A DNA stretch of 35,490 bases, taken from positions 1 through 35,490 of the forward strand of contig CAJFOO010000026.1 in NCBI GenBank assembly GCA_904397205.1, written 5' to 3'. This stretch comes from an uncultured Clostridia bacterium (GTDB lineage: Bacteria > Bacillota > Clostridia > Oscillospirales > Acutalibacteraceae). Below are positions 1 through 35,490 of this stretch, piece after piece. Under the pieces are notes generated by a model that saw nothing but the letters and a program-made list of their open reading frames with translations, ran no database searches and was not told where the DNA came from. The first letter of the stretch is position 1. The number at the start of each line of letters is the position of its first letter. The position numbers and the translations under genes are program-made.

Positions 1-293
1 CCAAAGAACGCATCGTATTTTTCAATATCCTGCTTGCGGGAGGCAATGTATTTGACCAGCAGGGAATGCACCAGATCGTTGGCGCTGGTCTTATCCAAAA
101 AGGCCAGCTTCTCCAGGTTCTCCTTTGTGCTCGGATAAAATACATAGTTTACCCGCGCGGTCTTCAATTCCTTTTGCGGCCGGGCTTCTTTTTTCGCCGT
201 CTCCTGCACCGGGGCGGACGCCTCCGGCGGCGTGATAAACTGCATCGTGGGGTTATCCAGGTGGATCCCGGCTTTAAAGCTCTTTTTATTCAT
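1..293 (-). CDS. Small partition-associated protein downstream of ParA (partial, runs off the window start)
   Basis: Not in the ORF track because it is truncated. Minus-strand ATG at 293 overlaps the parA stop by 8 nt; translates MNKKSFKAGIHLDNPTMQFITPPEASAPVQETAKKEARPQKELKTARVNYVFYPSTKENLEKLAFLDKTSANDLVHSLLVKYIASRKQDIEKYDAFF. Position and size fit a ParB/RHH-like partner of ParA. Confidence 0.7.
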   Translation of the reverse strand, partial: MNKKSFKAGIHLDNPTMQFITPPEASAPVQETAKKEARPQKELKTARVNYVFYPSTKENLEKLAFLDKTSANDLVHSLLVKYIASRKQDIEKYDAFF

Positions 294-1062
294 GTGCCTT
301 TCCTCCTTTGTCTTGCAATATCTCATCCAGCAGGGACTGGTAATCCTGCGCCACCTTGCTTTTGGGGGCATAGGTGAAAATATCCGTGTGGCTGGCCTGC
401 GCTTCTTTGATGGCAATGGCTTCCCGGATGGGGGTTTGGAATACTTTGGTGCGGATCTGTGCCGCGGTATCCTGAATGAGATCGGTTAATTCTTTGGTCA
501 GGATGTTGCGCGGATTGTAACGGGTCAGCACGATACCTTCGATTTGCAGGGAGGGATTGGTGTATTTTTTCACGGTCTCGATGGTACCATACAGCCGCTG
601 GATAGCCGATAAGCTGAATAAATCCGCCTGCGCGGGGATAATCACCTTGGTGGCGACGGTCAGGGCGTTGACGGTCAGGACCCCAAGGGCTGGGGGGGTA
701 TCCAAGACCAGATAGTCGTACTGGCCGAGGAGGGGGGCAAGGGCTTCTTTGAGACGGTATTCCTTGCCGGTATCGTGAAACAGCAGGTCGGCCGCACTGA
801 GATTCATCGAGGCGGGGAGGATATCCAGATTTTCCCGCACGGGCTGGATCACGTCGCCGGCGGCTGCGGTCTGCTGCATCAGTTCCAAAATGGTGGGCCG
901 GCTGGGATCGGCGCCCGCCGCGAGCGTCAGATTTGCCTGGGCGTCCAAATCCACCAGCAGGGTTTTGTTCTGCTTGCGGGCCAGCCCCGCGCCAATGGCG
1001 TGCGCGGTGGTACTTTTGCCGATACCGCCTTTCTGGTTAGTGATGGTAAAAATTTCTTTCAT
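286..1062 (-). CDS. parA: ParA/Soj family chromosome/plasmid partitioning ATPase
   Basis: Deviant Walker A near N-terminus (TNQKGGIGKSTTAHAIGAGLA), LLVDLDAQANLTL, YLVLDTPPALGVLTVNAL. Confidence 0.95.
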   Translation of the reverse strand: MKEIFTITNQKGGIGKSTTAHAIGAGLARKQNKTLLVDLDAQANLTLAAGADPSRPTILELMQQTAAAGDVIQPVRENLDILPASMNLSAADLLFHDTGKEYRLKEALAPLLGQYDYLVLDTPPALGVLTVNALTVATKVIIPAQADLFSLSAIQRLYGTIETVKKYTNPSLQIEGIVLTRYNPRNILTKELTDLIQDTAAQIRTKVFQTPIREAIAIKEAQASHTDIFTYAPKSKVAQDYQSLLDEILQDKGGKAHE

Positions 1063-5484: not shown

Positions 5485-5586
5485 GTGAATTGCTCCTCTC
5501 GGTTTTCATTGTTTTTGTCTTATATACATAGATTACGGGGGACTGTCTGGGAAAGGGGGGAAACAAGGAAATTTTTTTGCAAAAAT

Positions 5587-7409: not shown

Positions 7410-7615
7410 GCAGCAGATTCCCTCCTGTACATTTATAGAATACGTCCTCCGCTTTTTGAAAACGGGGTCGGTACGCAATTCCTTTCCATCCTTTTGCCGA
7501 AAATACTCTAACTTAGTACTTTATCATTTTTTTCCTTAAACCGAAATCATGGAAAGGTTAAATCTATATAAAATAAAAACAAAAAAGAGAAAAGCTGACG
7601 GAAGGCTTAGAGGAA

Positions 7616-11311: not shown

Positions 11312-11514
11312 TGATTTCGATAGTATATCTCCTCTGAACCACTATCACTGAAGCTAGCAGCATCTTGTTTTCAAAAAATCTATTTGTAATTTTATTTACA
11401 ATCCCTTTGGTCAACAGATTTATTGTCTGAGTTGAGATTCCTTATGGAAAAGGGTTACGGCGAGTAGTCAAGAACACTCGTTTTGCGTGATTTGGCTTAT
11501 AATATCCTATTATC

Positions 11515-11558
11515 AAAATAAATTTACACAAAATAAAAATTTTGTGTAAATTTATTTT
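11515..11558. repeat. Perfect 20-bp inverted repeat (4-nt spacer) upstream of the tyrosine recombinase
   Basis: AAAATAAATTTACACAAAAT-aaaa-ATTTTGTGTAAATTTATTTT. Confidence 0.9.
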
Positions 11559-11602
11559 TGTTTTATAATAGTTTATAACTTTTTAAAAAGGAGAATAAAA
11601 TT

Positions 11603-12508
11603 ATGGAGAAATTAATTCACAATTTTTTGGAATACTTGGAGCTGATTGGAAAATCCAAACGGACAATTTCTGAATACGCCTTGGATTTAAGGGTATTTTT
11701 GTCTTTTTTCGGCGGACAGCATTCCCCGGATCTGGCGCTTTTACAATCCCTCCAGAGAAAAGACATTGAAAAATATACCTATTATTTAAAAAATGTGCGG
11801 CAGAATACCGCTGCCACCCGCTGCCGGAAAATATCCTCCCTCAAGGTGTTTTATGATTTTTTAATCCGGGAAAATCTGGTGCATAAAAATCCGGTAAACG
11901 ATGTAGCAAAGCCCAAAAAACCAGAAAAACTGCCAAAATATCTGACGCTGGAGCAAAGCCGGATTTTACTGGACGTCATTTCCGGAAAGCATCAAAGCCG
12001 GGATTTGTGTATGTTGACTTTACTGCTCAACTGCGGCTTGCGGCTGTCCGAACTGACCGGCCTGAACCTCGGGGATATTTCCAGCCTCGATACTCCAGGA
12101 CAGGCATTCATGCGGGTATGGGGAAAAGGCGGCAAGGAACGCATATTGTTTTTGAATTCTGCTTGTGTACAGGCTATCCAGCAGTATCTTCCTGTGCGGA
12201 AAACCAGAGACCCCGGGGAAACTGCCTTGTTCCTGAACGCATTCGGCAAACGGATCGGGAACCGGACCGTACAGAACATGGTACGCAGTTACCTGCAGCA
12301 AATAGGTTTAGGAAAGGGGTATTCTGTACATACCCTGCGCCATACAGCGGCTACGCTATTATATCAGTATTCCCATGCAGACATATTGATCCTCAAAAAC
12401 ATTTTGGGCCATTCCAATGTGAGCACAACGGAAATCTATACCCATCTTGGGAGCCATCAGGTCCGCAAAGTTCTGGAAAACAGCCCTTTCGTGACAAAGA
12501 AGGAATAA
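11603..12508 (+). CDS. XerC/XerD-like tyrosine recombinase
   Basis: 301 aa; SAM-like N-terminal domain; catalytic signature GLRLSEL, HTLRHTAATLL, LGHSNVSTTEIYTHL. Confidence 0.93.
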   Translation: MEKLIHNFLEYLELIGKSKRTISEYALDLRVFLSFFGGQHSPDLALLQSLQRKDIEKYTYYLKNVRQNTAATRCRKISSLKVFYDFLIRENLVHKNPVNDVAKPKKPEKLPKYLTLEQSRILLDVISGKHQSRDLCMLTLLLNCGLRLSELTGLNLGDISSLDTPGQAFMRVWGKGGKERILFLNSACVQAIQQYLPVRKTRDPGETALFLNAFGKRIGNRTVQNMVRSYLQQIGLGKGYSVHTLRHTAATLLYQYSHADILILKNILGHSNVSTTEIYTHLGSHQVRKVLENSPFVTKKE

Positions 12509-19018: not shown

Positions 19019-20695
19019 GTGAAAAATCTGAAAATCAAACTGCGCATGATCCTTGCCTTTGGGTCGGTAGTGCTTTCGTGCGCCATCGCCATTGCTGTCC
19101 TGATTGTAGGGAGCGTGCTGTCCGACCGGCAGTATATGAATGTGCTCAACAACAATACCACCGCATTCATTTCTTTCCTGACCGTCCGTACCGAGGTCAA
19201 CTATGCCGCCCGCCTGATGACCGGCATGATGACCTCCGGCTATGATGCCGACGAAGCGGCGCAGATCAATTCCCATGTCGAAAACCTTAACCAGCAGGCG
19301 CAGACCTTCCTGAATACCTACCCGGTGGACGACAATGCCGACCAGGAATATTACCAGATGATACAGCAATGGGAAGCCTATATCCCGGAGATGCTCAGCC
19401 TGATCCAATCCGACATGGACCAGGCCATTTCCAAATTCCATAATGAAATCGAACCCTTGATCGCCTCCATGGGGGAAAAGGGAACGGAAATCACCAGCAC
19501 CATGCAGGCCGACCAGAACCAGGCCGTGGCCGACACCGAGGTCATGAGCTGGATTTTCAGCGGCGTGGGCATGGGCCTTGGCGTGTTTTCGATTGCGCTG
19601 GCCATGTTTATTGTGGGACGCTTCGTGCGCGACATCACCCTCCCTCTGGAGCAGGCCCGCGATGCGATTGTGGCCATGAGCCACGGCGATTTGCAGCATC
19701 AGACCACCTATGTTTCCCAAAATGAGATCGGCCAGATGATGGATGCTATTCACAAGTCGCAGAAGGTGCTCAACGACGTAATCGAAGATATTTCCCGCGT
19801 GACGGGCGAGCTCAAAAACGGCAACTACAATGTGGCTTTCACCACGCATTTCCCCGGCAACCTCGCCCCCATCCAGGAAAGTATCGAGCAGTTTGTCTCC
19901 GACATGAGCGTGATTCTGGAGCAGGTTTCGACCGCCGCCGAGCAAGTGACCGCCGGCTCCGAGCAGATTGCCAGCGTATCGCAGGAGATGGCCCAGGGAG
20001 CCACCGAACAGGCCAGCTCTGTGGAACAGCTCGCCGCGACGATCAACGACGTTTCCACCCAGATCACCGAAACCGCCCACCATGCCCAGAGCGCAAGCAG
20101 CGAATCCATTTCGTCGTCGCAGGAGCTTTCCGTCAGCAACCGCAAAATGCAGGAGCTGATGCGTGCAATGGGAGAAATCAACCACTCTGCCGACGAAATC
20201 AGCAAGATCCTCAAGACCATCGAGGACATTGCCTTCCAGACCAACATCCTTTCGCTCAATGCCGCCGTGGAAGCCGCACGGGCCGGCGCGGCAGGCAAGG
20301 GGTTTGCCGTTGTGGCCGACGAGGTGCGCAATCTGGCAGGCAAATCGGCCGAAGCGTCGCAGAATACTGCCCAGCTCATTGAAAAATCCATTTCCGCCGC
20401 CAAAAACGGCAGCGCCATTGCCGACGAAGTGGCAATGATGCTGGATTCCGCCGTACAAAGCGCGGAAAACGTGACCAGCCGGGTGGAAAAAATCTCCGAC
20501 GCAGCCAACGATCAGGCGGCGGCCGTCAAGCAGATCAACGAAGGCGTGGACCAGATTGCCAACGTGGTGCAGACCAATTCCGCCACGGCGGAGCAGAGCG
20601 CGGCAGCCAGCGAAGAGCTTTCGAGCCAGGCCGCCTTGCTCAAGAACCTCATGAAACAGTTTACCCTCAAATCCAAAGGCGGGGAATTCCAATAA
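19019..20695 (+). CDS. Methyl-accepting chemotaxis protein
   Basis: GTG start after GAGGGG; 4HB-like periplasmic domain; [62 protein letters not shown]. Confidence 0.95.
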
Positions 20696-20699
20696 AAAA

Positions 20700-20758
20700 A
20701 GAGCCCGCACGGGCTCCGCAGAAAGCAGGGGATGCTTCCCCCTGCTTTCTTTTTTGCG
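20700..20758. terminator. Bidirectional terminator between convergent genes
   Basis: GAGCCCGcacGGGCTC and GAAAGCAGGGGatgcttCCCCCTGCTTTCTTTTTT. Confidence 0.85.
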
Positions 20759-20766
20759 CCGCCGGC

Positions 20767-21396
20767 TTAATCCGCCACGACGCTGATGCGTTGCTGTATA
20801 TGGTTCCCGTTTTCCGCCTCGTCCACCATGGCAATGGCATAATCGGCATAGCTTACCACGCTTTCCCCGCGGCTGTTGAGGGTCAGTTCCTCGCCGCCCA
20901 GAATGTATTTGCCGGTGCGCGCGCCGTCCGGACGGAAGTCCGCCGCCGGGCTGATAAATGTCCACCGCACGTCGTTTCTCTGCCGCAGTTCTGCAAGCGC
21001 CTTGCCCTGCGCTTTAGCCAGCGGCAAAAACTGGGGCGGGAAATCCGGGCTGTCGGAAAGGCAGGCGGTGTGTTCCGGGTTCACATACAGGCTCCCCGCC
21101 CCGCCGACCACCAGCAGCCGGGCCTGTGTGCCGGAGAGGATGTCGCACAGGTGCCGGAGCGAGGCGCTGTGCTGGGGGAGCGTGTCCTCGGTCCACGCGC
21201 CGAACGCATCCACTACCACGTCAAAGCCTTGCAGGTCGGCGGCGGTCAGATCGAACAGATCCTTTTGTAAAACGTGCGGCGCCTGGGTCTGGTTCTCCCC
21301 GCGCACAACCGCCGTCACCTCGATCCCTCTGCCCACGGCTTCCTCCACAATCTTCCGGCCAGCCTTTCCGTTGGCGCAAATAACCGCTAATTTCAT
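20767..21396 (-). CDS. NAD(P)-dependent oxidoreductase / NmrA-like SDR
   Basis: MKLAVICANGKAGRKIVEEAVGRGIEVTAVVR...LLVVGGAGSLYV...WTFISPAADF...GESVVSYADYAIAMVDEAE; ATG at 21396; tracked ORF extends to 21684. Confidence 0.88.
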   Translation of the reverse strand: MKLAVICANGKAGRKIVEEAVGRGIEVTAVVRGENQTQAPHVLQKDLFDLTAADLQGFDVVVDAFGAWTEDTLPQHSASLRHLCDILSGTQARLLVVGGAGSLYVNPEHTACLSDSPDFPPQFLPLAKAQGKALAELRQRNDVRWTFISPAADFRPDGARTGKYILGGEELTLNSRGESVVSYADYAIAMVDEAENGNHIQQRISVVAD

Positions 21397-21677
21397 ATGG
21401 CAATTCCTCCTTGATGGGTCTTTTTTGGAGCTTTGGGAATCTGTCCCGCGCCCCTTTGCCTGTATTATACGGCAGGGCAGCCGGGGCGTAAAGCACGCAC
21501 TTTCTGGTGGCATAGTTACCGGGAGGAAACGATTGGACGGTTTCCCCAAGGGAACCATTGGGCAGGGATGCGGGCTCGGGAAGCATGGGCACAGCGGGAA
21601 AATTTTTTTATTCTGGCTGTACGGGAAAGCGCGGGAGAAGGAGAAAAAATAAAAATAAGAATTTTTCTTATTTTCTA

Positions 21678-21706
21678 TTGACAAACCCGCCCCGTTCCGG
21701 TATACT
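21678..21706 (+). promoter_or_regulatory. Promoter of ahpC
   Basis: TTGACA-17-TATACT; inverted repeat GTTAG-gatata-CTAAC at 21716-21731 just downstream. Confidence 0.85.
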
Positions 21707-21763
21707 TACCTTAGAGTTAGGATATACTAACCAAATGTTGAAAAGAAAAGGAGCGAGTATCTT

Positions 21764-22327
21764 ATGTCTATGATTAACAAAGAAGTCAGCGATTTCAGCG
21801 TGGAAGCCTTTCAGAACGGCGCATTTAAAACCGTGAAAAAAGCCGATATCCTCGGCAAATGGAGCGTATTTTTCTTCTATCCGGCCGATTTCACCTTCGT
21901 ATGCCCCACCGAGCTGGAAGACCTGGCCGATAAATACGCCGAGTTCCAGGCAGCAAACTGTGAAATTTACTCGGTTTCCTGCGATACTCACTTTGTCCAT
22001 AAGGCCTGGCATGATGCGTCCAAGCGCATCCAGAAAATCCAGTACACCATGCTGGCCGACCCGACCCATGCCCTGGCCAAGGATTTTGACGTGTACATTG
22101 AGGACGCCGGCCTGGCAGAGCGCGGCAGCTTCATCGTGAACCCCGAAGGCAAAATCGTTGCCTACGAAGTCACTGCCGGCAACGTCGGCCGCAACGCCGA
22201 GGAACTGCTGCGCCGCGTGCAGGCCAGCCAGTTTGTGGCCCAGCACGGCGATGAGGTTTGCCCGGCCAAGTGGAAGCCCGGCGCACAGACCCTCAAGCCG
22301 AGCCTGGACCTGGTTGGCCAACTGTAA
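21764..22327 (+). CDS. ahpC: Peroxiredoxin, alkyl hydroperoxide reductase subunit C
   Basis: SVFFFYPADFTFVCPTELEDLADKYAEF; C-terminal EVCPAKWKPG; AAGGAGCGAG SD. Confidence 0.97.
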   Translation: MSMINKEVSDFSVEAFQNGAFKTVKKADILGKWSVFFFYPADFTFVCPTELEDLADKYAEFQAANCEIYSVSCDTHFVHKAWHDASKRIQKIQYTMLADPTHALAKDFDVYIEDAGLAERGSFIVNPEGKIVAYEVTAGNVGRNAEELLRRVQASQFVAQHGDEVCPAKWKPGAQTLKPSLDLVGQL

Positions 22328-22348
22328 TACGGGAAGTTATTTCACAAG

Positions 22349-23977
22349 ATGGAGAATCTATACGATGCGGTAGTGGTAGGCGGCGGGCCGGCAGGCCTGA
22401 CCGCTGCCATCTATCTGGCCCGGGCACGTTACCGGGTTCTGGTTATTGAAAAAGAACAATTCGGCGGACAGATTACCATCACGTCGGAAGTCGTCAACTA
22501 TCCCGGCATCGAACGCACCAGCGGCACAGCCCTCACCGAATCCATGCGCCGCCAGGGGGAACATTTCGGGGCACAATTCCTTCTTGCGGAGGTAACCGGC
22601 TTGGATTTGTCCGGTGATGTGAAAATCATTCACACAACCCGCGGCGATTTCCGGTGTTTCGGGGTCCTTATCGCCACTGGAGCCTATCCGCGTACCATCG
22701 GGTTTGCGGGCGAGGCCGAATTCCGCGGGCATGGCGTGGCGTACTGCGCCACCTGCGACGGCGAATTTTTCACCGGCAAGGAGGTCTTTGTGGTGGGCGG
22801 CGGGTTTGCCGCGGCGGAAGAAAGCGTGTTCCTCACCAAATATGCCCGCCATGTGACCATCCTTGTCCGGGAACCGGATTTCACCTGCGCCAAGAGCGTA
22901 GCCGACGCCGCACGCGCGCATGAAAAAATCACCGTGCTGACCAACACCGTCGTGGAGGAAGCCGCCGGGGATTCCATGCTGCGCTCCCTGCGCTACCGCA
23001 ACACCGAAACCGGCGAAATCACCGAGTACCGCCCGCCTGCGGGGGAAACCTTTGGGATTTTCGTCTTTGCGGGATACCAGCCGGCCACGGCGCTGGTGCA
23101 GGGGCTGGTGGAGCTGGACGCACAGGGGTATGTGGTGACCGACCGCAGCCAGCAGACCAGTGTGGAAGGCGTATATGCCGCCGGGGATGTGTGCGTAAAA
23201 AACCTGCGGCAGGTCGCCACAGCCGTAGGCGACGGCGCTGCGGCAGCCACGGAACTGGAAAAATATGCCGCACGGATGCAGGAAAAAACCGGCCTGCATC
23301 CCGCCGTGCCGGACCCTGCCAAGGATGCGGCCGAAGCCTCTCCCACCGAAGGCGATGGCGCGCAGGAGGAAGATATGTTCCCGCCGGAAATGCGCGCACA
23401 GCTGGAGACGGTATTCCAGAAGATGGAAGCCCCCCTCCTGCTGGAAATGTCGCTCGACGACCGGCCGGTTTCGGCGGAGCTGGAGCAGTTCCTCACGACC
23501 CTCACCGGCCTGACGGACAAGCTGACGCTGCGGCAGGCGGCCAGCCCCAAACCGGACGCCCCGTGCGTGCGGATCCTGCGGGCTGACGGGGAAGATACCG
23601 GCATCGCGTTCCACGGGGTACCGGGCGGCCATGAGTTCACTTCTTTTGTGCTCGCCCTGTACAATGCCGCTGGCCCGGGGCAGTCCCTGCCCGCCGGGGC
23701 CGAGGAAGCCATCCGCGCCATCCAGCGGCCCGTACAGATGCAGGTTTTCGTGTCGCTCTCGTGCACCATGTGCCCCGAGCTGGTGGCTGCCGCGCAGCGC
23801 ATTGCCTCGCTGAACCCCCTGGTTTCGGCGGAAGCGTACGACCTCAACCATTTCCCGTCCCTGCGGGATCAGTACGAGGTCATGAGCGTACCCTGCCTGA
23901 TCATCGGCAGCGGCAAGCCCGTATTCGGCAAAAAAAATATCCAGCAGCTGCTGGATCTCCTCAAAGAACATGCATAA
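22349..23977 (+). CDS. AhpF-like/thioredoxin reductase-like flavoprotein with C-terminal tandem thioredoxin-fold domain
   Basis: N-terminal FAD-binding VVVGGGPAGLTAAIYLARA, CATC active site, NAD-binding VVGGGFAAAEE; C-terminal FVSLSCTMCPELVAAAQRIASLNPLVSAEAYDLNHFPSLRDQYEVMSVPCLII. Confidence 0.92.
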   Translation: MENLYDAVVVGGGPAGLTAAIYLARARYRVLVIEKEQFGGQITITSEVVNYPGIERTSGTALTESMRRQGEHFGAQFLLAEVTGLDLSGDVKIIHTTRGDFRCFGVLIATGAYPRTIGFAGEAEFRGHGVAYCATCDGEFFTGKEVFVVGGGFAAAEESVFLTKYARHVTILVREPDFTCAKSVADAARAHEKITVLTNTVVEEAAGDSMLRSLRYRNTETGEITEYRPPAGETFGIFVFAGYQPATALVQGLVELDAQGYVVTDRSQQTSVEGVYAAGDVCVKNLRQVATAVGDGAAAATELEKYAARMQEKTGLHPAVPDPAKDAAEASPTEGDGAQEEDMFPPEMRAQLETVFQKMEAPLLLEMSLDDRPVSAELEQFLTTLTGLTDKLTLRQAASPKPDAPCVRILRADGEDTGIAFHGVPGGHEFTSFVLALYNAAGPGQSLPAGAEEAIRAIQRPVQMQVFVSLSCTMCPELVAAAQRIASLNPLVSAEAYDLNHFPSLRDQYEVMSVPCLIIGSGKPVFGKKNIQQLLDLLKEHA

Positions 23978-24069
23978 ATATCCCTCTGGGGACCGGGAAA
24001 CCGGTCCTTTTTTTATCTCTGCGGCGGAAATTGTCCACAGGCGCCCGCCCATTTTTGTGGAAAAAATAC

Positions 24070-24098
24070 TTGACAGATCCGGATATACCCTTTATACT
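24070..24098 (+). promoter_or_regulatory. Sigma-A-type promoter reading into the 24.1-24.2 kb small RNA locus
   Basis: TTGACA (24070-24075)-17-TATACT (24093-24098). Confidence 0.7.
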
Positions 24099-24111
24099 AA
24101 ATAACAGGAAT

Positions 24112-24222
24112 AAAAAAAATGCCAGGGAGGAAAACCTCCTGGCATCCTGCGGCAAGGCTGCATACCAAAGCGCTTGCCACTTGAATAGTACATGTTTCGT
24201 TTGCAGACGCGGTACTATTTCT
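24112..24222 (-). ncRNA. Candidate three-stem small RNA with strong terminator
   Basis: Minus promoter TTGACT (24258-24253)-18-TATAAT (24234-24229); stems AATAGTAC/GTACTATT (24184-24219), GGCAAG/CTTGCC (24151-24178), terminator ATGCCAGGaGG..CCTCCcTGGCAT plus T8 (24112-24145). Confidence 0.65.
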
Positions 24223-24426
24223 GTCTTTATTATAGTATAAAGCACTACAATAAGTCAAGGCTTTTTTGAAAATTTTCTCCAAAAAATTTTTCCTCCCTTT
24301 CCAGGCGGGGCCTTCGACGGAAGATAGAAATGATACATGCGATAGAATAACGGGCTGTACTGTTGGAAAAAAACACAGGCGGCCCGTTTTTATTTTGTCC
24401 GCCGGAAAGAAAGAAGGAAAAAATTA

Positions 24427-25319
24427 TGACGCATACCACCGCATACCACCGCCTCCAACTGCACGAGACGTTCAACCCGCTGTACCTGCAGCTGCCCCGG
24501 TTCCTGTTTGAAGGCGAACTGCGCGACGGCCTCTCAAACGATGCGCGCATCCTCTACGCCGCACTGAAGGCCCGCCATTCCCTGAGCGACCGCAACGCCT
24601 GGGTCAACGAAAACCAGGAGGTGTACTTCCTGTTCTCCCGCGAGGAAATGTGCCGCATGATCGGGTGCAGCCTGCCCACCCTGCGCAAAGCCCTGCGCCT
24701 GCTGCGGCAGTTCCGGCTCATTGAGGAGGAACGCCAGGGGCTGGGCCGGCCAAACCGGATCTACTTAACCCGCTACGAAGATCCCGGCGCCGGGGAAACC
24801 CCGCTTCCCTCCAGAAAGAAAGAATCTTTCCGTCTGGGCAAAAAAACCTTTTCCCCAAATCAAAAAGAAAAGAAACAAGAAAATCCAGAGATCCTTTCTT
24901 CTTCTGACGGCGACGATACACAAACGCCCCTTTCCCAAGGACTGCCATGGGACGCTGTCCAGTCGGCCGACTGCCCAGCCTCGTTCCTGTCAGCCGTGCT
25001 AACCGTCCTGCAAAACGCCTGCCGTCCCGATCGCCGTCCTGCCATTGGAAAAGAGCGCCCTCCTGCAGACACGGTGCGGCGGCAGCTGCGCCGGCTGCGA
25101 AAGGAACATATCGAGCATGTGTACCAATGCGTGTCCTCCACCGCGCGGGAAATCCGCAATTTCCCGGCCTATCTGCTGGCCTGCCTCTATCACGCCCCCG
25201 AAAGCTATGCCCTTGCCCAGGCCGTCCCGCCGTATTCCCCCCCCTGTGAGGACCGCCGCCCGACGTACGACCTGGAAGCCTACGAAGCCATGGATTTCCT
25301 GGCGGAACTGCGGCGGTAA
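24427..25319 (+). CDS. repA: RepA_N-type replication initiator protein
   Basis: FNPLYLQLPRFLFEGELRDGLSNDARILYAALKARHSLSDRNAWVNENQEVYFLFSREEMCRMIGCSLPTLRKALRLLRQFRLIEEERQGLGRPNRIYL; C-terminal TVRRQLRRLRKEHIEHVYQCVSSTAREIRNFPAYLLACLYHAPE. Confidence 0.85.
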
Positions 25320-25532
25320 GGGGGTTCCCCAGCCGCTACATACGGCCGTATAAGCGCCGGCACCGCACCGGCAAACGGATGGTCTATCTACCGGCAAGGG
25401 CGTCCTGCCCTTGCCTAAAATACCGGGACAACCCTCGCACGCGGTGTTTTTATTTTGTGGGGCCGTATGGGTTCCGCCAAACGCGCAAAAACCCCCTTCC
25501 TGCCCATTTCCGGCAAAGAAGGGGGGGAGCGT

Positions 25533-26141
25533 TTATGCTTGGCGGCCGGGGGCGGCGGCCAGTTGATCCATGGCCAGCACTTGCACCGCACCCATGGCCT
25601 GGGCTTCCTCGCGGCTGTGCGTCACCAGCAGGACCGTTTTCCCGGCACAGCGTGTTTTTGTGTCCTGCATGACCGTCTGCTTGGTTTCCGCATCCAGCCC
25701 CTTGAACGGTTCGTCCAGGAACAACACGTCGGATTCTGCCAGCAGCGCCCGCAGGATCGCCACGCGGCGGCACATCCCGCCCGAAAGCTCCCGTACCGGC
25801 TGCCCCGCACATCCCGCAAGGCCGACGGATTCCATGGCGCGCAGGGCTTCTTCCCGGCGCAGACCCGGGCATACCAGGCGGATATTTGCCGCCGCATCCA
25901 GATTCCTGCACAGGCGGTCTTCCTGGAATACCGCGCTTTGCTTTTTCCCCAAAAGCCCGGTAATCTTCCCGCTGTCGGGAAGCTCCAGGCCCATCAGGAT
26001 CCGCAGCAGCGTGGTTTTCCCAAAGCCCGAGGGGGCCATCAGCGCGCTGACCTTCCCCGCCGGGAACACCGCCGAGAAATCCCGCAGCACGGGCTTGCCA
26101 TCGAATGATTTACAAAGGTGTTCTACCCGGATGGGTTCCAT
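25533..26141 (-). CDS. ABC transporter ATP-binding protein (nitrate/sulfonate/taurine type)
   Basis: Walker A-like APSGFGKTTLL, signature LSGGMCRRVAILRAL, Walker B DVLFLDEPFKGLD. Confidence 0.92.
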   Translation of the reverse strand: MEPIRVEHLCKSFDGKPVLRDFSAVFPAGKVSALMAPSGFGKTTLLRILMGLELPDSGKITGLLGKKQSAVFQEDRLCRNLDAAANIRLVCPGLRREEALRAMESVGLAGCAGQPVRELSGGMCRRVAILRALLAESDVLFLDEPFKGLDAETKQTVMQDTKTRCAGKTVLLVTHSREEAQAMGAVQVLAMDQLAAAPGRQA

Positions 26142-26146
26142 AAAGG

Positions 26147-26920
26147 CTACATCCTTTCCACACGTTGGATCAGGCGGCCCAGCAGCACAAGGAACCCCTT
26201 TTCAAAGGCCAGGCTCACGCACACAATGACTGCTGTCCAGGCGAACAGGTCGGGGGTTGCCAGATAGATTTTGGCCTGCTGGAGCTTTTCGCCGATGGAA
26301 CCGTCGGGCATGCCGATGACTTCTGCCGCAATGCCGGATTTCCAGCAAAGGCCCAGCGCAATCGTACAGCCGGACCGGAAAAACGGCAGGACCTGCGCCG
26401 TATAGATATACCGGAACCGGCGCAGGGGCGGGATCCGGAACACCCTGGCCATTTCCAAAAGCTGCGGGTCGGCCGCGCGGATGCCGCCCAGCACATTGGT
26501 ATAGATGACCGGCAGCACCATCAGGAAGGAAATCAATACCGACAGGTTCCGCGACGAGAACCAGATCAGCGCCAGGATGATGAACGACGCGACCGGGATG
26601 GTCTTGATGGCCAGCATGGCGGGAGCAAGCAGTTCCTCCACCCGGCGGAACCGGGCCGAAAGCGCTGCCAGAAAAATCCCGGCCGCGGCCCCCAGCAGAA
26701 ACCCTCCGCCGATGCGCAGCAGCGACCATGCAATCGAGATCCAGAAATCCCCTGTGCCGCCAAGCTCCCAAAGCCGCACGACCACCCGCCACGGGGCTAC
26801 CAGCAGGAATTCCTTGCCGATGCAAAGGCTGGCAATCTGCCAGACGCAAAGCCATACCAGCACCGCCCAAAGCCGGATATGCCGCCGGCGCTTGCGCTTA
26901 GCGGCTGTAATAGAACGCAT
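26147..26920 (-). CDS. ABC transporter permease (SsuC/TauC-like)
   Basis: Multi-TM, EAA-like loop (GGIRAADPQLLEMARVFRIPPLRRFRYI), co-oriented with ATPase and SBP. Confidence 0.92.
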   Translation of the reverse strand: MRSITAAKRKRRRHIRLWAVLVWLCVWQIASLCIGKEFLLVAPWRVVVRLWELGGTGDFWISIAWSLLRIGGGFLLGAAAGIFLAALSARFRRVEELLAPAMLAIKTIPVASFIILALIWFSSRNLSVLISFLMVLPVIYTNVLGGIRAADPQLLEMARVFRIPPLRRFRYIYTAQVLPFFRSGCTIALGLCWKSGIAAEVIGMPDGSIGEKLQQAKIYLATPDLFAWTAVIVCVSLAFEKGFLVLLGRLIQRVERM

Positions 26921-27938
26921 CGCCCGGCAGCACGCCGCCGATGGATTGCGGGTTCTGTTCCAGCAGGACCGACAGATAGCCCGAGAGCTTCTGTTTCATT
27001 TCGTTCCCTTCGATGAAGGTGATATTGCAGGAGGGCAGGGCTTCTTTGGCCACTTCTGCGGTGACAATGCCATATTTGCCCACCAGTTCGGCAGCCCCGT
27101 CCACATTGGCGTTGACGTATTCCACAGACGCCTGATAATCGTCCAGGAACGCGGATACCGCCTCGGGATTCTGTTCTATAAAATCCCGGCGCGCCACGAC
27201 TACGCCTGTGATCAGTGCGGACGGCGATTCGCTTCCCGCTTGGATGGCGTCCCATTCCTCGGTCAGATCGAGCGCCACGCGCAGGCCGTCGTTCTGCTTG
27301 AGGGCGGTGGTCACAAACGGCTGCGGCAGCATGGCCACGGCGGCCTGGTCGGTGCTTAGGGCAGCCAGGCAGGCAGCGGCCTCGCTCTGCCATTCGATGG
27401 TGACATCCGCGGCGGGATCGATGCCGTTTTGCGAGAGCACATAGTTGAGGGCGTATTCAGGGGTGGTGCCTTTGCCGGTGGCATAGAGGGTTTTGCCGCG
27501 CAGATCCTCCACGGACCCGATGGACTCGCCGTTTTCCACTACATACAGCACACCCAGGGTGTTGATGGCCAGCACCTGGATTTCCCCGCCGGCATTGTTG
27601 TAGAGCGCGGCGGCGGCGTTGGCCGGCAGCGCGGCGACGTCAATGCGGCCTTGGGTGAGGCCCACGGTGACTTCGTCGGCCATGGTCTGGATAGCAAAGG
27701 TATATGCCTGGCTGGCGGCGCCGTTTTCGGCGTCGTCCATCAATTTGACCATCCCCATGGCGGTGGGGCCGTTCAGGGCGGTCACGCGCATACCGGTTTC
27801 TGTGGTGGCCGGGGCGGACGGTTCGGGCTGCGGCTGCGAGGACGGCGCGGAAGCAGCGCCTTGGGGCGTGGTAGCGCAGCCGACCAGCATCACCGCTGCG
27901 AGCGTGAGGCAAAGAAGAAGCGGGATCAGTTTTTTCAT
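26898..27938 (-). CDS. ABC transporter substrate-binding lipoprotein (NMT1/THI5-like)
   Basis: MKKLIPLLLCLTLAAVMLVGCATT lipoprotein signal; DLRGKTLYATGKGTTPEYALNYVLSQNGIDP; ORF extends upstream to 27992. Confidence 0.9.
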   Translation of the reverse strand: MKKLIPLLLCLTLAAVMLVGCATTPQGAASAPSSQPQPEPSAPATTETGMRVTALNGPTAMGMVKLMDDAENGAASQAYTFAIQTMADEVTVGLTQGRIDVAALPANAAAALYNNAGGEIQVLAINTLGVLYVVENGESIGSVEDLRGKTLYATGKGTTPEYALNYVLSQNGIDPAADVTIEWQSEAAACLAALSTDQAAVAMLPQPFVTTALKQNDGLRVALDLTEEWDAIQAGSESPSALITGVVVARRDFIEQNPEAVSAFLDDYQASVEYVNANVDGAAELVGKYGIVTAEVAKEALPSCNITFIEGNEMKQKLSGYLSVLLEQNPQSIGGVLPGDAFYYSR

Positions 27939-28034
27939 GACAAGATTCATCCTTTCTGTTGGGCCGGGGCGCGCGGCAGCCGGATTGTGCAAAGGCGCGG
28001 GAGGCTTGTCCGCGGCGGGGAGCCCTGCCCATAT

Positions 28035-28086
28035 GTTAGCGTAATCTAACCCATTTTATTATACCCCTGGGGAAAAGGGAAGTCAA
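28035..28086 (-). promoter_or_regulatory. Promoter/operator of the ABC transporter operon
   Basis: Minus TTGACT (28086-28081)-17-TATAAT (28063-28058) then GTTAG-attacg-CTAAC (28050-28035). Confidence 0.8.
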
Positions 28087-28156
28087 GCCGCCTGCTGCCC
28101 CCCTGCGGAAAAAGCAGCAGCCGCCCCGGGAAACCCACAGGGCGGCGGCTGGCGCT

Positions 28157-29695
28157 TTACAGGTTGTCCGGATAATTTTCCGGGGCCTGCGGCCAGTGCG
28201 AATACAGATACCACTGGTGATCCTGGCCGAGCAGGTCGTCGCTGATGAGGAAATAGGTGTGGCGCAGCACCGGCGTGGAGCTGACCGGGTCGTCCCAGGT
28301 CACATCCACGTTGTACCACTGCCCGTCGATTTCCACCTTGTTCCAGGCGTGGGCTTCCTGCTGGCCGCCCGAGTACCCGATGCCGGAAATCCGCAGGCAT
28401 TCGATATCCGCCAGGTAGCAAAGCAGGTCCAGCGCCTTGACATATCCGTCGCATACGGCCCGGCCGTCCACCAGCGCACCCACGGCGGCATGGCTGCGGT
28501 CGCCGGTCTCGCGGTAGGTCACGGTGTTGACCAGGTAGTCGTGGAACGCCAGCACAATCTCATACTCGCTCATGGAGGGGTCCACCAGGTCGGCATAAAC
28601 CTCCCGGGCGGCGGCAAGGGTTTGCTGGTCTTCCGCCGAGAGCGAGGAAGATTTGCCTTCCAGATATGCCATGATACGCGCTGCATCGTTGTAAGTAATG
28701 TTTACCGTGAATTGCCCGGAGCCGTTCACATAGGATGTGCGCAGCTGCAGGACATCCTGGAAGCGTTCAATCTGTTCGAGCAGGAGGGTCTGGTAAGCGG
28801 CTTCCTGCCCGCGGGGGACATGGATATCCACCTCGCTGCTGCGGCTGTTCATCACCTCGATGAACTGTTCCATCAGATCGTCGCCCGAAGAAACGGTGAT
28901 CGACGAGATAGCCGGGGTGATTTCCGTGGAGGCGCCCGCGGATGGGATCAGGCTTTGGCCCTTGTCGGCCCACCAGGAGGTGTCGCGGGTGGCCACCCCG
29001 CCCTGGGCAACCCCGTTTTGCACGTCGATGCGCACAGAGGAATGGGTCACCGCGCCGCCGTCCTGAACAATCTCATAAATAATGTAGCAGGTGCCGGGGT
29101 TTCTGCCGGTAACGCGGAAATTCCCGTTTGCAAGCTGCGTGAGGTTCACAATGGAGCCGGTACGGGAATCCGACACGCGCAGGGTGCCGTTTCGCACCAT
29201 CTGCTGGACCTGGCTTCCCGAAAGCGCCTGCCCGTCGCCGTCGGTGACGGTCACGCCGATGTCATAAATATTGCCGGGGGCCATGCGGTAGTTGACGGTA
29301 TCGAGCGTAATGGATCCGCCTTTGGGATACACGGTCACGGCAATGGAAGCCTGCTGTCCGTCATACGATACCGAGAGGGATGTGGAACCCGCCTGTAAGC
29401 CGGTTACCCGGTATGTTGCGCCGGAAGCGTCGACGCCGGCGAACGAAACGGACGCAATGGAGGGATCTTCCGGTTCAATGAAGATGCCGCCCGAGGAGGA
29501 AGCGCCCTCGATAGTGAACGAGCCGATCCCCACCTCCTGCGTCAGCTGTAAAGACTGCACATTCAGCCAGGAAGCCTGGCTTTGCTGTGTCTGCGCGGCG
29601 AATACCTGCGGCGCCGCGCCCACCGCCGGGACGCTGAAGGCCAGCAGGGCGGCCGCCAGCAGCGACGAGAAAAGTTTCTTTTTTCGTAGGTGCAT
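28157..29695 (-). CDS. Secreted protein with Ig-like regions and a transglutaminase-like domain
   Basis: Signal peptide MHLRKKKLFSSLLAAALLAFSVPAVGA; GRAVCDGYVKALDLLCYLADIECLRISG...HAWNKVEIDGQWYNVDVTWDDP; tracked ORF extends to 29986. Confidence 0.9.
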   Translation of the reverse strand: MHLRKKKLFSSLLAAALLAFSVPAVGAAPQVFAAQTQQSQASWLNVQSLQLTQEVGIGSFTIEGASSSGGIFIEPEDPSIASVSFAGVDASGATYRVTGLQAGSTSLSVSYDGQQASIAVTVYPKGGSITLDTVNYRMAPGNIYDIGVTVTDGDGQALSGSQVQQMVRNGTLRVSDSRTGSIVNLTQLANGNFRVTGRNPGTCYIIYEIVQDGGAVTHSSVRIDVQNGVAQGGVATRDTSWWADKGQSLIPSAGASTEITPAISSITVSSGDDLMEQFIEVMNSRSSEVDIHVPRGQEAAYQTLLLEQIERFQDVLQLRTSYVNGSGQFTVNITYNDAARIMAYLEGKSSSLSAEDQQTLAAAREVYADLVDPSMSEYEIVLAFHDYLVNTVTYRETGDRSHAAVGALVDGRAVCDGYVKALDLLCYLADIECLRISGIGYSGGQQEAHAWNKVEIDGQWYNVDVTWDDPVSSTPVLRHTYFLISDDLLGQDHQWYLYSHWPQAPENYPDNL

Positions 29696-29876
29696 TCGAA
29701 TCTTCCTTTCCAAAAAGGCCGGTTTGCCCGGGGGCAAAGGGGTATGTGGTCTGCAAAACAATCCCTCTTTTCTATTATAGAGGATTTTCTGCATCCTGTC
29801 CAGTTCCTTGGGCAATGTGTCCAAAAAGGCGCCCCCTATCCCCTGTCTTGGCAAAGCGCGGACGTGCCGGATCAAA

Positions 29877-29909
29877 AAACCCCCTGCTGCACAGCGGGGG
29901 GTTTTATTA
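29877..29909. terminator. Hairpin terminator downstream of crcB
   Basis: AAAACCCCCTGCTGCACAGCGGGGGGTTTT. Confidence 0.8.
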
Positions 29910-30275
29910 TCGCAGGATGAGCTTTTGCCCGAGGTATACGGCCAAAATGCCCAGCGCCACGCTGGAAACAGCGTACAGGATGGCAATCCAGAGATTGCCG
30001 TTTTTTATCAGGCCATGGGTTTCCAGCGCAAACGAGGAAAACGTGGTGAACCCGCCGCAGACCCCGGCCTGGAGGAACAACACCAGGCGCGGCGGGAGCA
30101 GGCTGTGCTTGGAGGCCAGCGCGGCGATGATCCCGATGGCGAAGCAGCCTGCCAGGTTGATGAGGAAGGTCTTAATGGGGAACACCATCCACTCCTTGAC
30201 AGGGATCAGGCCGATAAGATACCGGCACACTGCCCCGAGGAACCCGCCCGCGCCCACAGCCAGGCATTCAATCAT
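29907..30275 (-). CDS. crcB: Fluoride exporter CrcB/FluC
   Basis: GAGGFLGAVCRYLIG, TFLINLAGCFAIG, GVCGGFTTFSSFALE. Confidence 0.96.
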   Translation of the reverse strand: MIECLAVGAGGFLGAVCRYLIGLIPVKEWMVFPIKTFLINLAGCFAIGIIAALASKHSLLPPRLVLFLQAGVCGGFTTFSSFALETHGLIKNGNLWIAILYAVSSVALGILAVYLGQKLILR

Positions 30276-33200
30276 GGATTTGCGCCTCCTTTCCGGGTGG
30301 ATTCTTCGGGCTGGTCAATGGTGCGGAAGAAGTCCTCCAGCTCCATGGGGCGGTAGAAATAAAAGCCCTGGATAAAATCGCAGCCGGTTTTCTGGATGGC
30401 CGCAAGTTCCTCTTCGGTTTCCACCCCTTCTACGCAGACCTGCTTGCCGAACCGGTGGCAGGCGTAGATCACGCTCATAATAAAATCCATCTTTTCTTTG
30501 GAAGAGGTCACTTCACACATCAGCATCCGGTCGAGCTTGATCAGGGTTGCCGGGTAGCGCAGGAGCAGCTGCAGGCTTGAATATGCGTTGCCGAAGTCAT
30601 CCAGCGCGAAGGTGATGCCCATTTCCTGACATTGCGTGATGAAGTGTTCCAGATGATCGGGCATCTCGTCAAAATGGGTTTCGGTCAGCTCAATGGCCAG
30701 GTTTTTCCCGGGGATGCCAAATTCCTGCATGGTTTGCTGAAGAAATGGGAAAAAGTTTTCATCCACAATTTGCAGGTAACTGACATTGATGGACAAAAGG
30801 AAATCCGGGAAGCGCCGGAGGATATCGCGGCAGGCTTTCAGGGCCTGGGTAATGACCCATTTCCCAACGGGGAGGATCAGGCCCGACTGCTCCAGGATGG
30901 GGATAAACTTGGCCGGGGGCATGTCGCTTCCCTGGTTTTTCCAGCGAAGGAGGATCTCCCCGCCGAAGATGCGCCCGGTGTCGGTGCGCACCTGGGGCTG
31001 CACCACAATGCGGAAATTCTCAAAGGCGTGGTTAATGCTGGAATGGAGCGCCAGGCTCAGGTCGGCGTGGTTTTTGCAGATGGCCGACATATGCGGCGAA
31101 AAAGAGAGGTAATCGAGCTCGGGGAACGCCTTGGCGGTCTGGGCGACCACCAGGGCGTTGTCGATGAATTCCTGCGGGGTCTGGCCGTCCTGGGGATAGT
31201 ACAGCAAGCCGACGGCGCACGGGTACAGCATATGGACGCCGTGGCTGCGGTATACCTCGGCCACAACTTCATGGATGCGGCGGGATGGAGGGCCGGGGTC
31301 GTCGGCCTTGTGTGAAACGGCCAGGAAGCGCAGGCCCTCCAGGCGGAAAAAGCGGAAATCGCTGCCAAGGTCCATCTCGAGCTGCCAGGCGATCTCCTGC
31401 AAAATGGCATCGCCGATGGCGCGGCCGAAAGTGTGGTTGATGTCGGAAAAATTCTGGAAGGTAAAGCTCAGCGCCATGGCAGGCTGGCCGCCGCCCGCGC
31501 GCGCCAGTTCGTGCCGCGCAAACGAAAGGCTCAAAAACCCCGTGATGGGATCGACTTCCATTTCGTTTTTGAGGTTTGTCAGGCTGCCGGCCAAAAACAG
31601 CGCTTTTTTGCCGGTTTCGTCCCACTTGAGCGCCGCGCGGCAGGAGATCCACACCAGCGCGCCGTCCTTATCGCGCGCGCGGAAGCGCACGGCCATAGCC
31701 GTGCGGTTTTCTTCAAACATGCCGTGCATCTCCCGCTGGGCCTGCCGGCGGTCGGGTTCATAGATTTTCTCTTCCATGCGCGGAAGGAAGTCGTACACCA
31801 GGTTGTCTTCAAACTGGAAATCTTCCCGGAAGTTGTCCGAAACATAGTAGGTATTCTTCTGCACGTCGCCGCAGAAAAGGTACGGCCCGGCTTCCCCGCC
31901 CACAATGGCCTGCAATCCCGCGTCGGCGTCGAAATAGTAGTTTTTCAGATAGGCCTCGAACGCCGAATCTTGCTTGCGCGTGTCCTGCTGCCCTTTGGCG
32001 GCGGCCTCCATCTGCCGGTAAAAGGCCCGTTTGTCTTCATACATGCGGGAGTCCGCCACCTGCAAAAGCTGGGAAAAGTCTTTTTCCCCCCGGTCGGCCC
32101 ACACGCTGCCAACCGAAAGGGTGCAGTTTTCCGCCAGCAGGGTTTTGCGCAGGGCGGCCACCCTTTCGGAAAACGTTTCTTTGCTGGCCCCCAGGCGCAA
32201 GACGATAAACTCGTCGCCGCCGATGCGGAAAATCTTGCTGCGCGGGAACGACTCGCGCAAAATCTGATAGGCCTGCACAATGAGCCGGTCGCCGCCCTCG
32301 TGCCCGATCGTGTCGTTGATCTTTTTCAGGCCCGTGATATCGCAGTAGACCAGGCCCACGGTATCCTCCAGGGAATCCTTGTCGGTATTTTTGGAAAGGG
32401 CGTGGCGGTTGAGCGCGCCGGTGAGGGGGTCGTAATAGCTGATGCGTTTGAGGTGGTCCATCAGGTCGCGCCGCTGCAAAATCGCCACGATAAAATGCGA
32501 GAGCATCTTGCAGTTTTCCATAATGACCGATACCAGGGTTTCGGGGGGGTTGTCCAGCCGCAGAAAGCCCAAAAGGCCGCCCTTGCCAAGCAGCGGGAAC
32601 AGCACGAGCGAATGGATGCTCTCATATGGCAGGAGATATTGATACAGATCCGGCACGCGGTCGCGCATCTGTTCCAAGTTGTAGAAATACATCGGCTCGT
32701 TGTGATGGAATTCCTGGTACCAGTCCTGGATATACAGGGCAAAATCCATGCACAGCGGCGGGTACTGGGGGGAAGAGGCGTCTTTGGTGTAGCTGTAGGT
32801 GTTATAGACCATGTCGCCGTCGCGCACTTCGTGGATGTATGCACCGTCGCAGCCGGTATGATCCACCAGGTAGCGCAGCATCCGCTGCAGCGACTGGTGG
32901 GGGTCGGCGGTGGAATGGGTGACCATCAGGCACTCGTTGACAAAGGATTCCTGCCGCACCAGAGAGGAATCCGGCAGGGAGAGGGTTTCGCCGCAGGTTT
33001 CGGCGGCAACCTCCATGCGGTACAGCCGCCCCTGGTGCTCTATGAGGGTATCCTTGAGCGCCATGACCCGCTGGAGCACCGGGTTGCGGTAGATCCATTC
33101 GTAGCAGTCGCCCGGGTTTTTGAGCTTGTAGTTGGTGCAGAAGGCGCAGGGCTTGGGCAGTTTTTGCAGCACCCCGTAACATGTTTTGCCCTGGTAGTTC

Positions 33201-33316
33201 TCCAGGGAGAACGCCTTGCGCGCGGCGGCGTTCATATATACCAGTTCAAACGTCTGCACATCGGCTACATAGACCAGCTCTTTCCAGTTTTCCAAATGTT
33301 CCCAAGGCGCTTTCAT
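30272..33316 (-). CDS. Multidomain PAS/GAF-GGDEF-PAS-(degenerate GGDEF)-EAL protein
   Basis: DPLTGALNRHAL...RIGGDEFIVLRLG; second GGDEF-like GFLSLSFARHELARA lacking GGDEF; EAL: GGEILLRWKN, SINVS, ELTETHFD, LDDFGNAYSSLQLL, EGVETEEE. ATG at 33316; the 1317-aa tracked ORF extends spuriously to 34225. Confidence 0.92.
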   Translation of the reverse strand: MKAPWEHLENWKELVYVADVQTFELVYMNAAARKAFSLENYQGKTCYGVLQKLPKPCAFCTNYKLKNPGDCYEWIYRNPVLQRVMALKDTLIEHQGRLYRMEVAAETCGETLSLPDSSLVRQESFVNECLMVTHSTADPHQSLQRMLRYLVDHTGCDGAYIHEVRDGDMVYNTYSYTKDASSPQYPPLCMDFALYIQDWYQEFHHNEPMYFYNLEQMRDRVPDLYQYLLPYESIHSLVLFPLLGKGGLLGFLRLDNPPETLVSVIMENCKMLSHFIVAILQRRDLMDHLKRISYYDPLTGALNRHALSKNTDKDSLEDTVGLVYCDITGLKKINDTIGHEGGDRLIVQAYQILRESFPRSKIFRIGGDEFIVLRLGASKETFSERVAALRKTLLAENCTLSVGSVWADRGEKDFSQLLQVADSRMYEDKRAFYRQMEAAAKGQQDTRKQDSAFEAYLKNYYFDADAGLQAIVGGEAGPYLFCGDVQKNTYYVSDNFREDFQFEDNLVYDFLPRMEEKIYEPDRRQAQREMHGMFEENRTAMAVRFRARDKDGALVWISCRAALKWDETGKKALFLAGSLTNLKNEMEVDPITGFLSLSFARHELARAGGGQPAMALSFTFQNFSDINHTFGRAIGDAILQEIAWQLEMDLGSDFRFFRLEGLRFLAVSHKADDPGPPSRRIHEVVAEVYRSHGVHMLYPCAVGLLYYPQDGQTPQEFIDNALVVAQTAKAFPELDYLSFSPHMSAICKNHADLSLALHSSINHAFENFRIVVQPQVRTDTGRIFGGEILLRWKNQGSDMPPAKFIPILEQSGLILPVGKWVITQALKACRDILRRFPDFLLSINVSYLQIVDENFFPFLQQTMQEFGIPGKNLAIELTETHFDEMPDHLEHFITQCQEMGITFALDDFGNAYSSLQLLLRYPATLIKLDRMLMCEVTSSKEKMDFIMSVIYACHRFGKQVCVEGVETEEELAAIQKTGCDFIQGFYFYRPMELEDFFRTIDQPEESTRKGGANP

Positions 33317-33435
33317 ACGGCAAAATCCTTCCCCTCGCCGCACCGGGTTTCCGGCGGGCGTCATATACTCCTGATTTTTGTCTTTGTCTATTGTATAGTG
33401 TACTGTATTTTTGAGGAAAATGTCAATATGCCGCC

Positions 33436-34104
33436 TCACCCCAAGGGCAGGGTAAAGCGGTTTTTTTGAAAGTCGATCCGGCCTTCTCTGCGCAGCTTGG
33501 AAAGCTCGTGGCACATCGCGCTGCGGTCCACCGAAAGGAAGTCGGCCAGCTCCTGGCGCGAAAACGGGATCGAAAACGACCGCGATCCGGCGCGCCGGGC
33601 TTCCCCGCCCAGATAGCACAGGAGTTTTTCGCGGGTGGTGCGCTTGGAAAGCAGCTCCACCTTGCGGCTTAGCTGCATATTTTTGCCCGCCAGCACGCGC
33701 AGCATATTGTAAATGAGCCGGTGGTGGAACGCGCAGCGTTTTTCGCAGGTGGAGAGGATTTTCCGGTAATCGATCCAAAGGATTTCGCTGTCCCCGGCCG
33801 CCACCGCCCCCACCGGCAGCGCCGCCGCCCCCGCGCACGCGAACGCTTCGCCGAAGAGCTGCCCCGGCCCCACCGAGGCCACAATGCTGCGGTTGCCGTA
33901 AAAATCGTCCTGTATCACCTGCACCTGCCCGGTCAGTACCAGGCCCACCCGGCCCGCCGGATCGCCTGCGCGCAAGACGTCCCCGCCCGCCGGGATCTTT
34001 GCCCGCCGTGCCGAAAGGCATCCGAGCAGGGCGGGCAGATCGGTTTCGTCCACGCCGTCGAACAGCGGCGAAGATCCCAGGATTTCCCAGTCGGTTTTCT
34101 TCAT
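33436..34104 (-). CDS. Crp/Fnr family transcriptional regulator (HcpR-like by context)
   Basis: cNMP-like N-terminus (LVLTGQVQVIQDDFYGNRSIVASVGPGQLFGEAFA), HTH SFSIPFSRQELADFLSVDRSAMCHELSKLRREGRIDF; divergent from hcp. Confidence 0.92.
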   Translation of the reverse strand: MKKTDWEILGSSPLFDGVDETDLPALLGCLSARRAKIPAGGDVLRAGDPAGRVGLVLTGQVQVIQDDFYGNRSIVASVGPGQLFGEAFACAGAAALPVGAVAAGDSEILWIDYRKILSTCEKRCAFHHRLIYNMLRVLAGKNMQLSRKVELLSKRTTREKLLCYLGGEARRAGSRSFSIPFSRQELADFLSVDRSAMCHELSKLRREGRIDFQKNRFTLPLG

Positions 34105-34238
34105 GGCTGCCTCCTTTTTGTTGGAAAAACAACATACAATCCCAGCATACCATAGTATACTCTACCCTGTAAACCGCTTTTTTGAAAAATACTGCGAAAA
34201 AATACCGGATGACACGATACGACAAAGGAGGAAAACCG

Positions 34239-35490
34239 ATGGATATGTTTTGTTACCAATGCCAGGAGACGGCCGGCGGTTCGGGCTGCTGCGGTGCGGC
34301 GGGCGTGTGCGGGAAAACTGCCGAGGTCGCGGCCTTGCAGGATGTGCTGGTATATGCCGTGAAGGGGTTGGCCGAAGTGGTGGTCAAAGGGAAGGTCCCG
34401 CCGGAGGAGGCCCCCGATCTGCCCCGCGAGGTGCTCAAAAGCCTGTTTATCACCATCACCAACGCGAATTTTGACGGCGAGGCCGTCATGCGGCAGACGG
34501 AGAAACTGATCGCCGCCCGCGAGGCGCTCAAGGCCAAGCTCCCGCCCCGGGAATGGAGCCACGCGGCGCAGTTTGCCGGCGGGTCCCAGCAAGCCCTGCT
34601 GGCCGTCCGGAAGGAAGCCGGGGTGCTGTCTGCCGCGGATGAGGATATCCGTTCCCTGCGCGAGACTATCACCTACGGCCTCAAAGGGCTGGCGGCCTAT
34701 GCCCAGCACGCGGCGAACCTCGGCAAGGAAAGCCCGGAGCTGTACGCCTTTTTATATGAAGCGCTGGCCGCTACGCTCGACGATTCCCGCACCAAGGAGG
34801 ATCTTATCGCGCTGACGCTCAAAACCGGCGAGCACGGGGTACAGGCCATGGCCCTGCTCGATGAAGCCAATACGGCCGCGTACGGCCACCCGGAAATCAC
34901 CAAGGTGAATCTGGGCGTGCGGGGGAACCCGGGCATCCTGATTTCGGGGCACGACCTTTCCGATCTGGAGCAGCTTCTGGAGCAGACCCAAGGCACCGGC
35001 GTCGACGTATACACCCACTGCGAGATGCTGCCCGCGCACTATTACCCGGCGTTTCAAAAATACCCGCACTTTGTGGGCAACTACGGGAACGCCTGGTGGC
35101 AGCAGGCGGCGGAATTCGAGGCGTTCGGCGGGCCGGTGCTGTTCACGACCAACTGTATTGTCCCGCCCCGCAAGGACGAGGTGCGCCGGCGGATCTTCAC
35201 CTGCGGCGCGGCGGGCTACCCCGGCTGTACGCATATCGAAGCCGGCCCCGACGGCAAAAAGGATTTCTCGCCCCTCATCGCGCTGGCCAAAACCTGCCCC
35301 CCGCCCAAGGAGCTGGAATCCGGCGAGATTGTGGGCGGCTTTGCCCACAACCAGGTGCTGGCCCTGGCCGACAAGGTGGTGGAAGCCGTCAAGTCCGGGG
35401 CGATCCGCAAATTCTTTGTCATGGCGGGCTGCGACGGCCGTCAAAAGTCCCGCGGGTACTACACCGAATTCGCCGAAAAGCTCCCAAAGG
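34239..35490 (+). CDS. hcp: Hydroxylamine reductase / hybrid cluster protein (partial, runs off window end)
   Basis: Not in ORF track because truncated. [57 protein letters not shown]...[54 protein letters not shown]. Confidence 0.96.

Follow-up and report, generated by a model that had tools for sequence, protein, structure and literature searches.

Antisense-RNA transcription attenuation, acting on the initiator gene of a RepA_N replicon, is the best reading of the region ahead of repA in this Clostridia contig, and it is probably how copy number is controlled there. The window, by which we mean the whole 35,490-nt stretch that was analysed, is best read as part of a plasmid, a chromid or an integrated plasmid with a RepA_N initiator. 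Both promoters, both terminators, the overlap of the two transcripts, the RepA_N domain and a co-folding switch in the repA leader are computed (Table 1). An earlier note on this DNA had left three readings side by side. Its proposal of a copy-number control RNA beside repA is now backed by the layout, the protein family, a plasmid-type parA and the switch calculation; the type I toxin-antitoxin pair and the trans-acting small RNA regulator fared poorly, as set out below.

Table 1. Positions of the replication, partition and RNA features in the window.
Feature	Position	Strand	Basis
Small gene, candidate partition partner; overlaps the end of parA and is cut by the contig end	3..293	-	sequence
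Plasmid-type ParA	286..1062	-	Pfam AAA_31, phrog ParA-like partition protein
repA-leader promoter, TTGACA-17-TATACT	24070..24098	+	11/12 consensus
Predicted repA leader, 321 nt up to the start codon	24105..24425	+	start inferred from plus promoter
Antisense-RNA intrinsic terminator, hairpin and T8	24112..24143	-	sequence and fold
Predicted antisense RNA, about 110 nt, three stem-loops	24112..24222	-	fold z = -4.35
Pre-emptor (antiterminator) strand, within the antisense-covered leader	24183..24202	+	pairs with attenuator 5' arm
Antisense-RNA promoter, TTGACT-18-TATAAT	24229..24258	-	11/12 consensus
Intrinsic terminator (attenuator) before the repA ribosome-binding site	24349..24396	+	fold z = -3.55, sequence
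repA ribosome-binding site, AAGGA	24414..24418	+	sequence
repA, RepA_N plasmid initiator, 297 aa	24426..25319	+	PF06970, 4e-17

Two promoter sites face each other over 24070-24258, in agreement with the convergence described earlier for 24060-24260. The minus-strand site was recovered exactly as reported. The plus-strand site had been called perfect; this holds for its -35 element and spacer, but the -10 element is one position off the consensus. Sites that match 11 of the 12 consensus positions number 12 in the window, against 0-1 in each dinucleotide shuffle, and no other two of them converge closely. An inverted repeat (24090-24114/24218-24242) was considered as an invertible promoter or a MITE and rejected: most of it is made up of the two -10 regions, and the segment is present in one copy.

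The minus-strand RNA, its 5' end placed from the -10 element and its 3' end from the T8 run, folds into the three stems and the terminator that had been proposed for it. On the minus strand, 24212-24219 pairs with 24184-24191 (stem 1), 24169-24180 pairs with 24149-24159 (stem 2), and the terminator hairpin at 24143-24121 is followed by T8 at 24119-24112. Its fold energy is -42.6 kcal/mol, compared with -28.4 kcal/mol in shuffles, and 0 of 200 shuffles equal it. The plus strand of the same segment also folds well (z = -4.8). The RNA is complementary to nt 1-118 of the repA leader. No Rfam family reached its gathering score in the window, where searches at E up to 10 gave weak sub-threshold matches alone, and the window holds no tRNA.

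The repA leader folds with z = -4.5 to -5.3 (nascent leader, z = -5.3) and contains an attenuator that is absent from the earlier note and that a simple terminator scan did not list. Its 5' arm spans about 24348-24365, its T tract lies at 24387-24396, and it ends about 30 nt ahead of the repA start codon. Between 24105 and 24425 there is no further plus-strand promoter-like site; repA would therefore have to be reached by read-through. A 21-aa open reading frame with an AGGA motif (24119-24184, plus strand) lies just behind the inferred leader start and is a possible leader peptide.

Folding of the nascent leader (end at 24365-24383) joins the attenuator 5' arm to the pre-emptor strand in the best structure, with a mean pairing probability of 0.97-0.98. 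This falls to 0.0-0.3 once 24105-24222 is blocked, which mimics the antisense RNA. When both leader parts were shuffled, mean pairing was 0.27 and 0 of 900 shuffles reached the real value; shuffling of the antisense-covered part alone gave 1 in 900. None of the 19 other terminators in the window reached a pairing of 0.9. The energy of the isolated duplex between pre-emptor and arm is not significant (18-67% of shuffles are as good). Support for the switch thus comes from the ensemble calculation, which was picked when the duplex test had already failed. From 24386 on, with the 3' arm complete, the terminator is favoured at equilibrium whether antisense RNA is present or absent, so the switch would have to be kinetic.

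Control could then proceed as follows. The plus promoter would transcribe the repA leader and, without antisense RNA, 24183-24202 would hold the 5' arm of the attenuator, allowing RNA polymerase to read into repA. A constitutive minus-strand RNA would pair with leader nt 1-118 and take the pre-emptor away, upon which the attenuator would form and repA would be switched off. Because the antisense RNA would rise with copy number, initiation of replication would be limited. We infer for this scheme that both RNAs exist, that their pairing is rapid enough to have an effect, and that replication is initiated by RepA.

The protein encoded by repA carries a RepA_N domain (PF06970, 62 bits; cut-off, 30) and a DUF6017 domain. 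Its N-terminus matches the solved RepA_N domains 4pql, 4pt7 and 5kbj at E about 1e-17, and no second RepA_N gene was found in the genome. In pSK41 and other RepA_N plasmids, the origin (Rep boxes) lies in the central part of repA. The central part of this gene contains a low-GC patch (24800-24905; 0.40 versus 0.63) and, at 24951-24982, a 13/16 palindrome. No iterons were found.

Genes of both plasmid and chromosomal character surround this region. The best plasmid matches of ParA reach 52% identity over 97% (Lawsonia, Streptococcus), and at E <= 1e-60 ParA occurs in one other genome among 60 related ones. The small gene that overlaps the end of parA weakly matches sequence immediately behind ParA on the Streptococcus plasmid p29887. 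Upstream of repA lie ahpC (21764-22327) and ahpF (22349-23977; TIGR03143), and downstream, on the opposite strand, is a sulfonate-type ABC transporter. The earlier note had also raised an effect on ahpF. We dropped this idea because ahpF has its own terminator (23988-24009); the minus-strand RNA ends about 100 nt before it. A XerC/D-like recombinase gene is found at 11603-12508, and just before it is an A+T-rich inverted repeat with 37-nt arms (11498-11575), whose 13% GC is the minimum of the window; it is possibly a recombination site or an origin. Elsewhere, 4360-7478 holds a gene for a SigI-like sigma factor and two RsgI-like genes with 45- and 75-nt tandem repeats.

A close copy of part of the window, 99.3% identical over 19568-35490, is present in another metagenome-assembled genome (G547; CALXAN010000116.1, "uncultured Clostridia bacterium"; locus L034), which is assigned to a different family. 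A shared plasmid, a misbinned plasmid contig or a misbinned chromosomal contig would explain a near-identical contig in genomes of two families. In its extension the G547 contig encodes hcp, pst-phoU and a two-component pair, a gene content that favours a chromid, an integrated plasmid or a chromosome. Comparison of the two copies shows 0 changes over the 356 nt of the control region (24070-24425) and 1 over the 894 nt of repA; the spacers on either side show 3 changes in 92 nt and 8 in 213 nt. Most longer coding stretches differ by about 0.4-0.8%, and ahpC has 0 changes in 564 nt. The identity of the control region, a single comparison, hints at constraint. The stretch 34226-35490 is 4.5% different from the other contig (loci L081/L082), compared with about 0.7% in the remainder, as though it had recombined. 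Behind repA, a hairpin at 25390-25420 (GGCAAGGG-CGTCCTG-CCCTTGCC) has a loop that appears nearly as its reverse complement in the close copy (AAGGACG), resembling a loop inversion.

The covariance search in relatives that had been suggested earlier recovered nothing beyond the window's own contig and its near-identical copy. The model was run on 398 family genomes and 43 ahpF/repA loci and returned the window's copy alone, scores of 9-13 bits elsewhere being taken as chance. A DNA search of 98 relatives gave no homologue; its one 27-nt match (G096) is merely a promoter-like stretch. The control region has no match in plasmid and phage DNA. In viral contigs the pattern of stem 1 was absent, and a loose pattern of stem 2 occurred twice. 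Downstream of ahpF, four genomes of the same genus have different sequence and no such RNA. In one same-genus genome (G005; locus L056, 3530-3620), the stretch downstream of ahpF has a minus-strand promoter-like site and a short terminated stretch, positioned like the antisense RNA of the window and without clear sequence similarity to it.

The other RepA relatives found in the order and class are remote; within the order, the best reach 32-34% identity. We inspected the regions ahead of about two dozen further RepA_N genes, many of which lie within operons. Terminators stand just before the RepA_N gene start at three loci of the family (L007, 646-627; L014, 1383-1408; L023, 937-909). Those of L007 and L023 come close behind an upstream gene; that of L014 follows a separate leader, which shows no antiterminator.

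Several other explanations were weighed against attenuation. It is unlikely, although less so than the alternatives that follow, that the antisense RNA controls repA by another route, either by sequestration of the ribosome-binding site as in pSK41 or by interference between converging promoters. The layout of converging promoters and antisense RNA is also compatible with such control. When the full leader is folded, the repA ribosome-binding site is largely paired with 24286-24309, but 7-10% of shuffles pair it as well, and the pairing is unchanged when the antisense-covered segment is blocked. Strong converging promoters can collide. A dedicated terminator before the ribosome-binding site would be superfluous. 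We give a still smaller chance to an independent, trans-acting small RNA that merely happens to overlap the repA leader. Its own promoter and terminator and its stable three-stem fold would suit this role, but it overlaps completely with a leader that bears an attenuator. Since homologues are lacking in the family genomes (covariance model) and the relatives (DNA search), nothing points to conservation of a trans-acting RNA, and Rfam gave no match. The regulator acting elsewhere that the earlier note had allowed for is unsupported.

The region may also be a chromosomal relic of a plasmid control region, in which RepA and its RNA have ceased to drive replication, with a switch that is in decay or that drives a domesticated gene. 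The adjacent ahpCF and ABC transporter genes, with hcp and pst-phoU on the extended contig, would fit this explanation, as genes such as ahpCF, hcp and pst-phoU are usual on chromosomes, and no circularity has been established for the contig. Against it stand an intact repA, a control region unchanged between the two copies and a plasmid-type parA on the same contig, and we regard a relic as improbable. Least probable is a type I toxin-antitoxin pair. Its transcripts would converge and overlap as these do, yet the open reading frames of the segment encode just 21 and 25 aa on the plus strand and 33 aa on the minus strand, the last extending beyond the terminator, and none of the three resembles a hydrophobic type I toxin when judged by eye.

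Attenuation by the antisense RNA is therefore the reading carried forward here. We put forward tentatively, with some doubt, a more specific version: a RepA_N replicon of uncultured Clostridia, possibly an ahpCF/hcp/pst chromid common to more than one family, under attenuation of the pIP501/pT181 type with a terminator separate from the ribosome-binding site. No report of such attenuation of RepA_N outside staphylococcal plasmids was found in the literature searched. The predicted combination of antisense attenuation with RepA_N, and its clostridial host, would be new, the mechanism being predicted from sequence. If it operates in Clostridia, antisense attenuation would have been joined to RepA_N more than once, or the association would be old. 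There would also be reason to seek plasmids and chromids among contigs binned as chromosomal. Few genetic tools are available for the Clostridia group of the host, and the region could provide a copy-control cassette from this group. RepA_N initiators are widespread among plasmids of Firmicutes, and descriptions of RNA control concern those of staphylococci (PMC5703833).

The closest parallel in layout is the RNAIII/repR system of pIP501 (Inc18). In pIP501 a leader of about 320 nt has the antisense promoter about midway and, shortly ahead of the rep translation start, a terminator formed by an inverted repeat and a T tract, which the antisense RNA induces (PMC5703833). The window resembles it in leader length (321 nt), in a mid-leader antisense promoter, with the antisense start at leader nt 118, and in a terminator before the ribosome-binding site. 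However, the pIP501 initiator RepR is of the PriCT_1 type, whereas that of the window is RepA_N; pIP501 has a CopR gene upstream of rep, whereas in the window ahpF, and no CopR-like gene, lies directly upstream; and the RNA of the window has no Rfam match. Because of the differences in initiator and CopR, the window was not assigned to the pIP501 type. In the RNAI/repC system of pT181, the leader contains a pre-emptor that pairs with the terminator's 5' arm, and binding of the antisense RNA releases this arm (PMC5703833). The same pre-emptor logic is predicted for the window, where the plain duplex test was negative. pT181 is, however, a rolling-circle replicon with a Rep_trans initiator.

The staphylococcal plasmids pSK41, pSK1 and pSA564 are RepA_N replicons in which an antisense RNA acts on mutually exclusive folds of the repA leader, with a putative terminator (PMC5703833, PMC8129170). 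A 2017 review found similar RNA control to be apparently absent from RepA_N plasmids of non-staphylococcal genera (PMC5703833), and the host of the window is a clostridial metagenome-assembled genome. The antisense RNA measures about 83 nt in pSK41 and under 100 nt in pSA564 (PMC5703833, PMC8129170), compared with about 110 nt and three stems here, and the leader is 197 nt in pSA564, compared with 321 nt. In pSK41-type systems the terminator contains the ribosome-binding site, whereas in the window it precedes this site. The window was not assigned fully to the pSK41 type either, because an antisense effect on sequestration of the ribosome-binding site did not emerge: in the full leader this site is largely paired whether the antisense-covered segment is blocked or free, and 7-10% of shuffles are as good. 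It shares with these plasmids a RepA_N initiator and a small RNA antisense to the repA leader, predicted here with its own promoter and terminator.
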